In this document: positions 4,292 to 18,641 of the stretch, piece by piece | Position numbering within the stretch: the stretch's first letter is position 1 | How the letters are laid out: the number at the start of each line of letters is the position of its first letter | Source of the DNA: Methylococcaceae bacterium | GTDB lineage: Bacteria; Pseudomonadota; Gammaproteobacteria; Methylococcales; Methylomonadaceae | DNA: 32,611 nucleotides | Assembly (NCBI GenBank): GCA_006844585.1 | Contig: SPJM01000032.1 | Span: 1-32,611 of the forward strand | Direction: 5' to 3' | Position numbers and translations under genes: made by a program | Notes under the pieces: generated by a model | The model's database searches: none | Told to the model about the DNA's origin: nothing | What the model saw: only the letters and a program-made list of their open reading frames with translations

Positions 4292-6926
4292 AAAAATATA
4301 CTTTATCAGTTGTTTAGTAACCGTTTTGTTTTCCGGTTGCGCTTCGCAGCCGTTGAATTTGACGGAACAAAGCGGCAACGCCGACGCCTTTTTGGTGGTG
4401 GATTGTTTATTGCCGGGCGAGCTGCGTCAACTGGGGCGCTTGACGACTTATATTACCGCGCGTAAGGCGATAAAGACAACCGCTAGCGATTGCGCGGTGC
4501 GCGGCGGCGAGTTTACCCCGTCGGCGATGGCGTCTTATCAAACTGCATTTAAAATCTGGATGCCCAAGGCGGAAGCCGGTGACCCTGAAGCGCAGGCTTA
4601 TGTCGGCGAAGTTTATGAAAAAGGTTACGGCAGAGAACCGGATTTTGAAATGGCGGCTTTGTGGTATCGAAAAGCTGCTCGACAGGGTAATTATCGCGCC
4701 CAGGTAAATTTGGGCTATTTATACGAAAAGGGGTTGGGGGTTGAAAAGGACAGACAAAAAGCCGCTGAGTGGTATGCAAAAAATGTCAGTCGTCAAAATG
4801 TCGAATTTACTTCGACGATCACGACTGCGGAAGATGGCGACCAGTCTTCCGAACAAATTCGTTTGTTAAAGACCGAATTAAAAAATAGTGAGGCGGAAAA
4901 AGCCTTATTAACGAAACAAATGCAGGATCAACGGCGGCAATTACAACAAAATAAACAAAATGTTGCTGAATTAGAGCAAGTTATTAACAGTATTCAGCAG
5001 AAAATGAGCCATAGCAGCGGGCGACAACAGACTGTTTTGGCTAATCAAATGCAAGAAAAACAAACCTTGTTAAAGCAAGCTCAGGATGAGACCCGTTTGT
5101 TGGATGAGAAGTATCAGCGACAATTGCTGGCATTGAGGGATAGTCTTGGCAATATGGAAAAACGCGCTCAGCAAATTGCTGAAGAGTTAAGTAAACAGCG
5201 CGACCAATCTGCTTTACTGCAAGTTAAGTTAGCGGGCAGCGCAGATGAAAAGCAGCGGCTAAAGCAAGGTTTGGAGACCAAGCGTCAGCAATTGCAGGCC
5301 AGTCAGCAGAATGTAGCGGATTTAAAAAAAGTGATTGCTGATATACGTCGGCAAATGGCGACATCCGATCATCAGCAACAGTCTAAATTGAGCCAACTAT
5401 TGTCGGAAAAGCAGAATTTATTAACCGGCGAACAACGAAAAAATCAGCAATTGGAGCAACGTTATCAGCAGCAATTGTTGGCCTTGAAAAGTAATATCAG
5501 CAATTTGCAGGCAAAAACTGAGCAAATTACCGGAGAACTGCAAAGTCAGCGAGATAAAGCCGGTCAATTACAAATTAAGTTAATGGAAGCGGAAGCTAAT
5601 CTGGCCAGTACGGAGCAACAATTATTGCTGCAGGAGACAGAGTTCCAGAAAAAAATTGATATGTTGTCGGCGGATCATCAGTTGCGGCAGGGTGAACAAC
5701 GGGAATCCTGGAAAGATGAGGTTGAGCAGCAAATGGCCGCGCAGCAACAATTAATTAAACAATTAGAAGAAGAGAAAGTCGCATTTCAACAAAAAATGGC
5801 GACTCTGGAAAAACAGCGGCAACAACAAATAACCCCGGAAAAGCCTAAAATTGAAATTATTGATCCTTCATTTATTTATAGCCGCGGAATAGCCACAGTA
5901 AAGCTAAGGTCTTTGGTGAAAGAACGTGAATTGATCGGAAAAGTGGATTCTCCGGCGGGCTTGATGACCTTGTTAATCAATGACCGAAAAACCAAGGTGG
6001 ATGAATATGGATTATTTCGGCTTAATATGAATTTGTCTAAGCAGGAAACGCCGGTTGAAATTGTCGCAGTTGATGAGCGAGGGCAACGCAGCAGTCTGAA
6101 TTTTGTGTTTTCAATGACCGGCGCCGAACAAATGGATGCGCAGCGCCCCGGCTTACCGGAAAACAATCCTTGGAGCGTATTAAATTTCGGTAATTATTAT
6201 GCGTTGATTATCGGCAATAATAAATATCAAAAAGTGCCGACTTTAGATACGCCTCGTGCCGATGCCAGAGCGATCGATGCTGTTTTAAAGGCTAAATATG
6301 GCTTTAAAACTCAGGTTTTGCTGGATGCAACGCGTTATGAGATTTTATCGGCGTTGAATAAATTAAGAAGTCAATTGACCGAAAATGACAATTTATTGGT
6401 GTATTACGCCGGTCATGGCGAGCTGGATAAAGTCAATATGCGCGGGCATTGGTTGCCGGTTGACGCTGATGCCGACAATACCGCAAATTGGATTTCCACA
6501 GTTGCCTTAACGGATATATTTAACGCTATGAATTCCAAACATATTCTGGTGGTTTCCGACTCTTGCTACTCCGGAGCGATGACCCGTTCCTCGCTAGCGC
6601 GTCTTGATGCCGGTATGAGCCGGGCGCAACAACATGATTGGCTGAAGGCGATGATCAAAACCAAGTCCAGAACGGTGTTGACATCGGGTGGATTAAAACC
6701 GGTGTTGGATGGCGGCGGCGGCGATCATTCGGTTTTCGCTCAAGCCTTTATTCGCGCTTTGGCGGATAATAAGGGTTTATTGGAAGGGCAAAGTCTTTAT
6801 CGCAAGGTTTCATCCGGGATTGTGACTATCGCCGCCGGTTATGGGTTTGAACAAGTGCCTGAATATGCGCCTATCCGGCATTCAGGGCATGAGTCGGGGG
6901 AGTTCTTTTTTGTTCCTAAGATTTAA
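4281..6926 (+). CDS. Lipoprotein with Sel1 repeats, long coiled coil and caspase-like (C14) protease domain
   Basis: An 881-residue protein. The lipoprotein signal peptide ends in FSGC, with Cys20 lipidated. The +2 residue is Ala, so sorting to the outer membrane is expected. Residues ~93-170 hold Sel1-type repeats (AEAGDPEAQ, GYLYEKGLGV). A Gln/Lys/Glu-rich coiled coil of some 330 residues follows (~190-520). Next comes a ~90-residue beta domain (~530-615). A caspase-like peptidase C14 domain fills ~638-880: ALIIGNNKY, YYAGHGE with catalytic His712, and SDSCYSG with Cys762. Both catalytic residues are present. Such caspase homologues (metacaspase/orthocaspase type) usually cleave after Arg or Lys. 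The start overlaps the cyclase gene, so the pair is translationally coupled. The protease would face the periplasm, as would the CHASE2 sensor. Confidence 0.92.
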   Translation: MKNKKIYFISCLVTVLFSGCASQPLNLTEQSGNADAFLVVDCLLPGELRQLGRLTTYITARKAIKTTASDCAVRGGEFTPSAMASYQTAFKIWMPKAEAGDPEAQAYVGEVYEKGYGREPDFEMAALWYRKAARQGNYRAQVNLGYLYEKGLGVEKDRQKAAEWYAKNVSRQNVEFTSTITTAEDGDQSSEQIRLLKTELKNSEAEKALLTKQMQDQRRQLQQNKQNVAELEQVINSIQQKMSHSSGRQQTVLANQMQEKQTLLKQAQDETRLLDEKYQRQLLALRDSLGNMEKRAQQIAEELSKQRDQSALLQVKLAGSADEKQRLKQGLETKRQQLQASQQNVADLKKVIADIRRQMATSDHQQQSKLSQLLSEKQNLLTGEQRKNQQLEQRYQQQLLALKSNISNLQAKTEQITGELQSQRDKAGQLQIKLMEAEANLASTEQQLLLQETEFQKKIDMLSADHQLRQGEQRESWKDEVEQQMAAQQQLIKQLEEEKVAFQQKMATLEKQRQQQITPEKPKIEIIDPSFIYSRGIATVKLRSLVKERELIGKVDSPAGLMTLLINDRKTKVDEYGLFRLNMNLSKQETPVEIVAVDERGQRSSLNFVFSMTGAEQMDAQRPGLPENNPWSVLNFGNYYALIIGNNKYQKVPTLDTPRADARAIDAVLKAKYGFKTQVLLDATRYEILSALNKLRSQLTENDNLLVYYAGHGELDKVNMRGHWLPVDADADNTANWISTVALTDIFNAMNSKHILVVSDSCYSGAMTRSSLARLDAGMSRAQQHDWLKAMIKTKSRTVLTSGGLKPVLDGGGGDHSVFAQAFIRALADNKGLLEGQSLYRKVSSGIVTIAAGYGFEQVPEYAPIRHSGHESGEFFFVPKI

Positions 6927-9866: not shown

Positions 9867-11048
9867 ATGCAACATTATAAATTAAAATTCAGACCGGATA
9901 TTGAAGGTTTAAGAGCTTTAGCCATTATTTTGGTGGTTTTGGAACATGCTGATAGTCGTTGGTTGCCTGGAGGGTTTATCGGCGTTGATATTTTTTTTGT
10001 TTTATCAGGTTTTTTGATTACCGGTTTGCTTTTACAAGAGATTGTGGAAAACGGGCGGATAAAATGGTTGGCGTTTTATAGTCGGCGTTTTAAACGGTTA
10101 TTGCCGGCGCTGATTTTTATGCTGCTGGGTTCGTGGTTGCTTGTGCTCCTATTTTTAGCGCCGTATGAACAATTTTTTCATGCTGATGCAATGCAATATG
10201 CATCTGTTTGGGCAAGTAATTTTTTCTTTGCTTTTTCAAAAATCGGCTATTTTGATGCGACCGCTCAGGAAAATATTTTTTTGCATACTTGGTCATTAGC
10301 GGTAGAAGAGCAGTTTTATATTGTCTGGCCTTTTTTGCTTTATTTTTTTCTCGGCGCATTCCAGTGGCAGGGTGGGAAAGCCGATTGGAAAAGGCTTGTT
10401 TGGGGGTTGTGCGGAACCTTGTTGATTTGTTTTATATTTGGCTTATTTTTATCTTATACACAGCCTGTATGGGGATTTTATCTTATGCCTGCAAGAGCGT
10501 GGCAATTTGCTGCAGGCGGTTTGACATTTATGTTGTCTCATAAACTAATATTTTTTCGAAAGGATAATGTGGGCAATCGATGGGTATCAATGCCATTTAT
10601 CGCTGTACTATTGGGCTGGGTTGCGATTGTCTCATTAGTTGTTGTGGCTGTATTGATGCCGGATAATGTGGTTTATCCGGGCTTTTGGGCTATTATTCCC
10701 TCTTTAGCGACTTGTTGTATCCTGTTGGTTGGAAGTATTGAGCCAAACTCTTCTATGGCTAAATGTTTGTCACTCAAGCCTATGCAAGGGATTGGGCGAC
10801 TGTCATATTCATGGTATCTATGGCATTGGCCGATATTGATAATATTATCAGAAAATGTTTTTCAATGGCTGGAACAAGCGGCGGCGGATTATCAAAATGT
10901 CAAAACGTTGGATTTCAATGACATTATTTGCCCTGAAAAACAATGTAATGCGATGCAAAACGGACAAATTGTTTTTAGAGATAATCAGCACCTTACTCAA
11001 GCCTATGTTTCGTCTTTATCTGAAAAAGTGATTGAACTTCTTGAATGA
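9867..11048 (+). CDS. Acyltransferase family 3 (OafA-type) with in-frame internal deletion
   Basis: A 393-residue product. The N-terminal ~325 residues are a normal acyltransferase-3 membrane domain: FRPDIEGLRA, a His in the first helix (VVLEHAD), GFIGVDIFFVLSGFLITG and HTWSLAVEEQFYIVWP, through LSYSWYLWHWP. The last ~50 residues (from about WLEQAAADY) match the end of an SGNH hydrolase domain, including the Asp-His block FRDNQHL (Asp372, His375). What should lie between is missing: the last membrane helices, the linker, and the SGNH blocks with the nucleophile Ser. Full-length relatives are usually 620-690 residues, so ~250-290 codons appear lost in frame around 10845-10875. The family O-acetylates surface sugars; this copy is probably inactive or altered. 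AAGGAAGG gives a strong ribosome-binding site. Confidence 0.85.
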   Translation: MQHYKLKFRPDIEGLRALAIILVVLEHADSRWLPGGFIGVDIFFVLSGFLITGLLLQEIVENGRIKWLAFYSRRFKRLLPALIFMLLGSWLLVLLFLAPYEQFFHADAMQYASVWASNFFFAFSKIGYFDATAQENIFLHTWSLAVEEQFYIVWPFLLYFFLGAFQWQGGKADWKRLVWGLCGTLLICFIFGLFLSYTQPVWGFYLMPARAWQFAAGGLTFMLSHKLIFFRKDNVGNRWVSMPFIAVLLGWVAIVSLVVVAVLMPDNVVYPGFWAIIPSLATCCILLVGSIEPNSSMAKCLSLKPMQGIGRLSYSWYLWHWPILIILSENVFQWLEQAAADYQNVKTLDFNDIICPEKQCNAMQNGQIVFRDNQHLTQAYVSSLSEKVIELLE

Positions 11049-17774: not shown

Positions 17775-17816
17775 TTCAGTGAATCTTTAATAAATAAACG
17801 GGAATAAATGATTGGA

Positions 17817-17871
17817 GTAGGGTGGGTGTTGCACAGCGCTAATGTCAGCTGATGATTGACCAATACCCTAC
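17817..17871. repeat. Degenerate palindromic repeat with 7-bp terminal inverted repeats
   Basis: GTAGGGT at 17817-17823 and ACCCTAC at 17865-17871 frame a 55-base unit holding GGTGGGTGTT and CAGCGCTAA. The layout recalls the dispersed GTAGGGTGGG-type palindromic elements found in many gammaproteobacterial genomes, here degenerate in the middle. It lies between the convergent ends of the YjgR and HvfA genes. Confidence 0.5.
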
Positions 17872-17890
17872 GCCAAATGATGTCAAACTG

Positions 17891-18238
17891 TTATTTATTT
17901 TTTGAGCCGCATTTGCCTTCGCCGCATTTTCCTTCACCGCAACTCGCTTCTTTGTCGCTTTTCGGCATCGGTTTATTCCCTGCGCAATTGCCTTCGACAT
18001 TTTTTTCTTCGCCGCCTTTAGCCATATTGCCGCCGCATTTGCCTTCGCCGCAAGACATTTCTTTGCTGTCTTTATCCGCTTCGGCTAAATGCATATAACC
18101 GGTATTCAGTTCGGTTAGCGCAAAAGGATTCTCAATAGTCTTGGTTTGCGATTCGGCCTGAGCGGGTTGTGAGGCCATTAGACCGGAAACTAATGATGTG
18201 CCTAATGCCAGTGCGAATGGGGTTGTATTTTTTTTCAT
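17891..18238 (-). CDS. hvfA: HvfA-family RiPP-type precursor (EGKC-repeat peptide), orphan
   Basis: A 115-residue protein from the ATG at 18238; an in-frame TTG lies four codons upstream. Residues 1-28 form a signal peptide ending QPAQA. A conserved-looking block NPFALTELNTGYMHLAEAD (~37-55) matches the leader segment of HvfA-like precursors. The tail carries EGKC at 65-68, 102-105 and 107-110, and EGNC at 82-85. In the HvfA family such motifs are substrates for MNIO (DUF692, HvfB) enzymes with an HvfC partner. These enzymes convert the Cys to oxazolone/thioamide groups that bind copper. No hvfB, hvfC or DoxX-like gene is adjacent, so the modifying enzymes must be elsewhere or the peptide acts unmodified. 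An ECF-type promoter precedes it. Confidence 0.85.
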   Translation of the reverse strand: MKKNTTPFALALGTSLVSGLMASQPAQAESQTKTIENPFALTELNTGYMHLAEADKDSKEMSCGEGKCGGNMAKGGEEKNVEGNCAGNKPMPKSDKEASCGEGKCGEGKCGSKNK

Positions 18239-18300
18239 AACTTCATCCAAAAAGGTTAATCAGTAAAAACTTTTATTGTTTGTTTTTTTAGCATGGGTGT

Positions 18301-18325
18301 GACTAAACCACAAGCGGGAAGTTCC
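18301..18325 (-). promoter_or_regulatory. ECF sigma-type promoter for the HvfA-family gene
   Basis: Read on the minus strand, GGAACTT (18319-18325) is followed by 15 bases and then GTC (18301-18303). This matches the RpoE/ECF consensus (GGAACTT, 15-17 bases, GTC). Transcription would start about 55 bases before the ATG at 18238. ECF control is known for related MNIO-peptide operons. Confidence 0.6.
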
Positions 18326-18414: not shown

Positions 18415-18440
18415 AAAAACCCCCTGAAAAAACAGGGGGT
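18415..18440 (-). terminator. Rho-independent terminator of the small membrane protein gene
   Basis: On the minus strand, CCCCCTG, a six-T loop and CAGGGGG (arms at 18433-18439 and 18420-18426) are followed by five T residues. The stem is perfect. It lies 13 bases after the stop of the gene at 18453-18641. The A/T flanks may let it work weakly in the other direction too. Confidence 0.88.
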
Positions 18441-18452
18441 TTATTAGCTGAA

Positions 18453-18641
18453 TTATTCGAATACGTTATTGAAATCTTTACGACCTTCAAAACCTTTAGC
18501 TTCTTCTTCAACAGATTTGCTAGCTTGATAATTCAAATGTTCTGTTTCTCTGTCTTTTAATGTGACAACAAAGGCGACAGATAATACGATAGATGCGGCA
18601 ACAACAATGTTATAAGTATTGCTTTTCTTTTCTTCAGCCAT
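18453..18641 (-). CDS. 62-residue single-pass membrane protein, unknown
   Basis: A small protein (MAEEKKSNTY start) with one hydrophobic helix at about residues 11-27 (IVVAASIVLSVAFVVTL) and a charged tail with many Glu, Lys and Asp residues. I do not recognise a family. It looks like a real, well-expressed gene. AGAGGA stands at good spacing before the ATG. A near-consensus promoter (-35 TTGACA, extended -10) lies ~110 bases upstream and a strong intrinsic terminator follows. The N-terminus is probably cytoplasmic with the charged tail outside, but topology is not certain. Confidence 0.8.
   Translation of the reverse strand: MAEEKKSNTYNIVVAASIVLSVAFVVTLKDRETEHLNYQASKSVEEEAKGFEGRKDFNNVFE

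Follow-up and report, generated by a model that had tools for sequence, protein, structure and literature searches.

The window, by which we mean the whole stretch of DNA analyzed, spans 32,611 nucleotides of a Methylococcaceae bacterium. Its reverse strand carries a stand-alone gene for a precursor peptide of the HvfA family, which was delimited by open reading frame inspection, profile search, and comparison with relatives. The features of this locus are as follows.

17812..17876, no strand assigned: inverted repeat, possible two-way terminator, separating the precursor gene from the HerA-type gene that converges on it (fold of 17790-17893, arms by eye; not listed by the consensus scan)
17891..18238, reverse strand: stand-alone HvfA-family precursor gene, 115 amino acids plus stop (ATG at 18238, stop ending at 17891)
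17909..18052, reverse strand: cysteine core with CGEGKCG, EGNCAG, and CGEGKCGEGKCG; six cysteines, each followed by Gly or Ala
18083..18130, reverse strand: NPFALTELNTGYMHLA, a conserved stretch that follows the signal peptide and has a counterpart in the HvfA encoded beside the enzymes
18155..18238, reverse strand: signal-peptide-like N terminus of 28 residues ending in AQA (by eye)
18301..18325, reverse strand (read 18325-18301): predicted sigma-E-type promoter element GGAACTT-N15-GTC, GGAACTTCCCGCTTGTGGTTTAGTC; GAAC begins 86 bases before the ATG
18417..18439, reverse strand: hairpin with a T-run behind it, which probably terminates the upstream gene for a 62-residue protein (from folding; absent from the consensus-scan list)
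18456-18641, reverse strand: gene for a 62-residue protein lacking a Pfam match, upstream of the precursor

The peptide contains six cysteines. It has three EGKC motifs and one EGNC, just as the first-pass annotation had described. It matches the NCBIfam model for the HvfA-family domain, NF050137, with 32.6 bits against a cut-off of 19.5. The narrower HvfA equivalog model, NF050188, aligns over positions 1-96 of 96 and yields 31.3 bits against a cut-off of 95; because this score falls below the cut-off, we refer to the peptide as HvfA-family rather than HvfA. A Pfam search with E values up to 1 returned no match. Judged by its sequence, the peptide is a precursor of the HvfA family (EGKCG; Buf_EGKCG/oxazolin/captophorin). 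Its N terminus has, by eye, the appearance of a typical Sec signal peptide, and the chain, which is short and of low complexity, is probably disordered when no metal is bound. The ORF finder placed the start at a TTG at 18250, which we consider less likely than the ATG at 18238 because the proteins of relatives open at the equivalent ATG.

The precursor likely forms a one-gene transcription unit, since the hairpin with its T-run sits between the 62-residue protein gene and the precursor, setting them apart, and the inverted repeat lies on the other side toward the HerA-type gene. A consensus scan for terminators and sigma-70 promoters gave two promoter-like and one terminator-like match, with little contrast to the shuffled means of 2.1 and 1.5. 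In a comparison of stretches no longer than about 10 kb, the gene order (HerA-type gene, precursor, 62-residue protein gene, PPK2-like gene, TRAP genes) is whole in the relative G001 and partly kept in G002, G003, G004, G005, G007, and G034. Six relatives (G001, G003, G004, G005, G007, and G034) keep the 62-residue protein gene as a neighbor of the precursor. Elsewhere in the window, at 9867-11048 on the forward strand, an acyltransferase-3-like reading frame seems to be fused straight to an SGNH-type domain tail, its middle apparently missing (by eye).

Neither an MNIO (HvfB) nor a DUF2063 (HvfC) gene occurs in the window, which bears out the earlier statement that none lies beside the precursor. 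The genome (a draft of 376 contigs totaling 3.68 Mb, with a completeness of 97.35% and a contamination of 4.04%) encodes a single MNIO (C102:12616-13401) and a single DUF2063 partner (C102:12303-12557). These adjoin one another on contig C102 and stand behind a long, repeat-rich HvfA, making up an hvfABC operon. The operon HvfA (G000:C102, locus positions 5804-6776) is strongly repeat-expanded, and a stretch of N interrupts its assembled sequence. When the window peptide was searched against its own genome with E values up to 10, the only other matching place was this operon HvfA. Precursor and MNIO are therefore on different contigs here, and they lie about 467 kb apart in G001, a relative assembled as a single contig. 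The link between the window's contig and C102 rests on binning, with the fragmentation and contamination just given, and G001 has the same arrangement. The genome also includes a pmoA-family gene, on the basis of which we take the source to be a methanotroph.

Across 61 genomes, we found a precursor match in 51 and an MNIO in 58. Stand-alone precursors occur at 19 places in 15 genomes, a count in which contig breaks in fragmented drafts can fake the stand-alone state; 14 of these 15 genomes also have an MNIO, as read off the match tables. The window precursor had been introduced as an orphan, and this state is neither unique nor recent, given these 19 places, the clade described next, and the available sections of PMC12452194. 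We analyzed 17 of the 19 places (the second place at G018:C8:2407 and that at G032:C1:1900199 were left out) together with 34 MNIO-linked precursors, leaving aside about 18 others (for example, in G022, G023, G025, G035, and G036). In a tree of these 51 precursors, built from short sequences and with many weak forks, 12 stand-alone precursors including that of the window form one clade with support of 99/93 and zero MNIO-linked members, and the remaining five fall elsewhere. Our filter picked up no EGKC precursor next to the MNIO in G018 or G024, and the stand-alone copies of these two genomes may therefore be operon precursors that were displaced. Among the best 80 of 300 relatives, the closest named matches share 59% identity (a Methylococcales bacterium) and 51% (a Methyloprofundus sp.) with the window peptide, and the 6.3 kb retrieved for each of these two loci contains no MNIO. 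Of the 80 loci from named genomes, 67 have an MNIO within the retrieved flanks, and several of the other 13 end early.

Pairwise dN and dS were 0.033 and 0.351 for G004/G005 and 0.139 and 0.881 for G001/G003, the two least saturated pairs, corresponding to dN/dS of about 0.1-0.2; other pairs are near saturation. These ratios indicate that the clade is under purifying selection. Two clade members have only three cysteines and the G034 member lacks the C-terminal EGKC pair, as might be expected if the gene were a relic, that is, a duplicated hvfA drifting without function. The open frame, the kept locus, the well-supported clade, and the selection signal all argue against such drift, which we regard as very improbable. 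With its locus conserved in the genus and its membership in an old, always-separate clade, the window gene is, on these comparative grounds, no stray copy.

A peptide that is not modified at all would be exported as a plain thiol buffer for metals or oxidants, resembling metallothionein in the periplasm. Separation from the enzyme throughout the clade of 12 fits this idea, and PMC12452194, in its available sections, allows that precursors unlinked to MNIO genes may be acted on by an enzyme encoded elsewhere or may stay unmodified. The clade member of G011 could be cited too, as neither an MNIO nor a DUF2063 gene was detected in that genome. However, nth, which adjoins hvfA in G034 and G007, was likewise not detected in G011, so the absence of the enzymes there is likely an assembly gap, and we set G011 aside as an example of a precursor-bearing genome without enzyme. 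The presence of an MNIO in nearly all genomes with a stand-alone precursor also speaks against a plain thiol buffer, as do the sequences themselves. Gly or Ala follows all 57 of the 57 cysteines in the clade, compared with a fraction of 0.16-0.30 for the other residues of the same peptides; in the operon precursors, the count is 276 of 288. Among the 17 stand-alone precursors, 62 of 90 cysteines lie in EGKC-like contexts and 15 peptides contain the leader motif within NPFALTELNTGYMHLA; for the 34 MNIO-linked operon precursors, the figures are 89 of 288 cysteines and 32 peptides. We therefore consider export in unmodified form unlikely.

These features can be set beside what has been reported for the enzymes. 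HvfBC-type pairs turn the cysteines of EGKCG motifs into 5-thiooxazoles (PMC13097082; PMC13419390). The first-pass annotation held that HvfA-family peptides are modified at such cysteines, which stands with a correction of the chemistry, as the modification of HvfA is now assigned as 5-thiooxazole rather than oxazolone/thioamide in the accessible parts of the same two papers. FonBC modified a two-repeat substrate and left a one-repeat substrate unmodified, accepted only Ala besides Gly among the variants tested after the cysteine, and tolerated all single Ala changes before the core (PMC13097082, available sections). Because of this tolerance, a conserved leader is no proof of recognition. HvfA was a poor substrate when it lacked the signal sequence (PMC13419390, available sections). 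The window peptide, with paired EGKC motifs, Gly or Ala after each cysteine, and an operon-like signal and leader region, fits these FonBC/HvfBC rules, and because it does so, we favor a reading in which the distant HvfBC modifies it in trans and sigma-E controls both loci.

The case for shared control begins with the promoter element. The sequence GGAACTT, 15 bases, GTC that had been pointed out upstream of the precursor is present at 18325-18301. A similar element, GGAACAAATCGGTTTCTGTATAGTC (GGAACAA-N15-GTC, C102:14885-14909), precedes hvfABC with equal spacing, and GGAAC-N17-GTC is common to both upstream regions. A sigma-70/ECF profile has nine matches in the genome, six of them above the cut-off, and two of the nine can be read as ECF factors by size and neighbors. 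One is of the rpoE type (sigma-E/AlgU) and lies beside nadB, followed by rseA- and rseB-like genes (neighbors by eye). AGAACTT-N15-GTC stands upstream of this gene, and GAACTT-N15-GTC is thus shared by the window precursor and the genome's own rpoE, which makes the window element rpoE-like. The first-pass annotation had proposed looking in the genome for hvfB/hvfC and for an ECF factor with the same motif, and it had tied its reading to the presence of an MNIO enzyme; the search turned up hvfABC and the rpoE-type gene, both with the element, and an MNIO is at hand.

GAACTT-N15-GTC occurs seven times in the 3.68 Mb genome. Besides the two sites above, it is found 33 bases upstream of dsbD, 85 upstream of a MoxR-type ATPase gene, 107 upstream of hfq, and 183 upstream of a LysR gene, and one site lies inside a secA-like gene (by eye). 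The dsbD site (G000:C151, locus positions 1501-1524) is located, by eye, inside a cutA-like reading frame, and it may serve as a sigma-E promoter for periplasmic thiol reduction. Over the genome as a whole, the reversed control outnumbers the pattern, with 40 versus 7 occurrences for GAACTT-N15-GTC and 109 versus 46 for GGAAC-N17-GTC. The promoter case consequently rests on position, the signal not being a global one.

Among relatives, GAAC-N17-GTC precedes rpoE in 25 of the 30 genomes for which the locus was retrieved (of 33 matched), including all 19 from the window's own family. Because rpoE itself carries the element so widely, sigma-E of the RpoE/AlgU type is likely the ECF factor that acts at the window precursor and hvfABC. 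Upstream of the precursors, the core at spacing 17 occurs in 6 of the 17 stand-alone and 6 of the 34 MNIO-linked cases, compared with 0-1 at every other spacing between 10 and 25 and means of 0.14 and 0.30, respectively, in 500 first-order Markov resamples; one N19 match in G001, from a scan allowing spacings of 15-19, was left out of these counts. At hvfA loci from named genomes of Gammaproteobacteria, the core lies upstream in 19 of 79, with 0-3 at other spacings and a mean of 0.97 and maximum of 5 in 300 resamples. These 79 loci are the best 80 of 300 relatives minus one with fewer than 200 upstream bases, their upstream regions end at the start of the match rather than at a checked ATG, and they overlap the set of 17 and 34 precursors in some genomes. 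A chance match can be set aside, as the signal is specific to spacing 17 upstream of hvfA genes. Control of hvfA genes by a sigma-E-type factor may be widespread in Gammaproteobacteria, and the 79-locus count hints at a wider rule.

Within the genus, five of six copies at this locus have the core at -69 to -90 (G000, G001, G003, G004, and G005); as G001 is closely related to G003 and G004 to G005, this count amounts to about three lineages. No GAAC-N17-GTC core lies upstream of the precursor in G002, G007, or G034, where the neighborhood is partly kept, and in the clade of 12 stand-alone precursors only six have it, one of them at -284. Sigma-E control is for these reasons not universal.

Could another regulator, such as the sigma-F/NrsF pair, a different sigma factor, or a copper sensor, drive the same modification in trans, with GAAC-N17-GTC being minor or accidental? 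The second ECF candidate of the genome is a sigma-F-like gene with an NrsF gene (G000:C152, reading frames 132-794 and 830-2754 of the locus), near a weak multicopper-oxidase (cupredoxin-like) match and on a different contig from the genome's only MNIO. A pair of this kind drives bufferin operons in Caulobacter (PMC3511200, available sections), seven of the nine sigma-family profile matches lie beyond the two read as ECF, and the core is missing from half of the clade. A scan for the sigma-F element GTAACC-N16-CGAA gave matches with two mismatches in the upstream regions of all three loci concerned, the window gene, hvfABC, and the sigF operon. The places of these mismatches vary, however, whereas the window element deviates in neither box nor spacing and equals that of rpoE. 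We regard control by another regulator as quite unlikely.

Our preferred reading, which we think probable, is that the window peptide is a second substrate of the distant HvfBC, modified in trans to 5-thiooxazoles and secreted as a sigma-E-induced periplasmic Cu(I) sink. Under envelope stress, sigma-E of the RpoE/AlgU type would transcribe the stand-alone precursor as a one-gene unit along with hvfABC. HvfBC, the MNIO and DUF2063 pair from the other contig, would recognize the shared signal-peptide and leader region of the stand-alone peptide and convert its EGKC/EGNC-type cysteines to 5-thiooxazoles in the cytoplasm. Sec would then export the modified peptide to the periplasm, where it would sequester Cu(I). 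The gene, the motif, the synteny, the clade, the purifying selection, the single enzyme pair, and the shared promoter element are read from the DNA; from them, we infer that sigma-E uses the element and that this peptide is modified in trans, exported, and able to bind copper. Counting against the reading are the restriction of the core to 6 of 34 operon precursors and 6 of 12 clade members, the NF050188 score below its cut-off, the two clade members with three cysteines, and the genome-wide frequency of the pattern below its reversed control. The first-pass annotation had offered three options for a stand-alone copy. Two of them, that the peptide is modified in trans and that it adds a precursor to one ECF regulon, agree with a single hvfABC located elsewhere, a shared element, and an rpoE gene that carries it, and the third, an unmodified metal buffer, is disfavored by the leader motif and the rule of Gly or Ala after Cys.

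More broadly, we consider a general arrangement in this methanotroph family about as likely as not. One HvfBC pair would serve two precursor classes, a repeat-expanded one in the operon and an old, permanently unlinked paralogue with strict EGKC-Gly/Ala contexts; sigma-E would command both in the genus, and thiooxazole copper sinks would form an envelope-stress arm in copper-dependent methane oxidizers. The particulate methane monooxygenase of methanotrophs requires copper. If the reading holds, periplasmic copper sequestration would be linked to envelope stress in methanotrophs, and the substrates of a peptide-modifying enzyme would be scattered over the genome, where mining of gene neighborhoods overlooks them. 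The question raised in PMC12452194, whether unlinked precursors are modified in trans or unmodified, has a clean test in this genome, with its one enzyme pair, two precursors, and one element.

Like the captophorins HvfA/oxazolin, fontiphorin, and gonophorin, the window peptide is predicted to be secreted, contains EGKCG motifs, matches NF050137 above its cut-off, and has an MNIO and a DUF2063 protein in the same genome. Unlike them, it is encoded outside the enzyme operon, has few and irregular EGKC motifs and one EGNC, and scores below the cut-off of NF050188. ECF control of an hvf-type cluster is also known for the doxX/DUF2063/COG3220 cluster of Haemophilus influenzae, where RpoE2 belongs to ECF group 13 and is paired with a small peptide anti-sigma factor (PMC7907618, available sections); the rpoE gene here instead has rseA- and rseB-like neighbors by eye. 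In Caulobacter, sigma-F/NrsF controls DUF2282-DUF692-DUF2063-DoxX operons under metal stress (PMC3511200, available sections), and a similar pair exists here, although the precursor family, DUF2282, and the promoter, GTAACC-N16-CGAA, both differ from those of the window gene. The closest counterparts are the stand-alone Buf_EGKCG/bufferin precursors of PMC12452194, which are likewise unlinked to MNIO genes, with an MNIO elsewhere, and match the likely single-gene unit seen here. The available sections of that paper present stand-alone precursor genes in a figure covering Buf1, Buf2, and Buf_EGKCG, some of them single-gene units, and list EGKCG precursors without MNIO in 67 of 2583 genomes (Table 3); they describe no always-separate clade, promoter, or regulator, unlike the present case. 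Our search of open-licence papers found neither an always-separate precursor clade in methanotrophs nor sigma-E/AlgU control of hvf genes. Stand-alone EGKCG precursors were thus known before, and what appears new here, judged by that search, is the always-separate clade together with its proposed sigma-E wiring.
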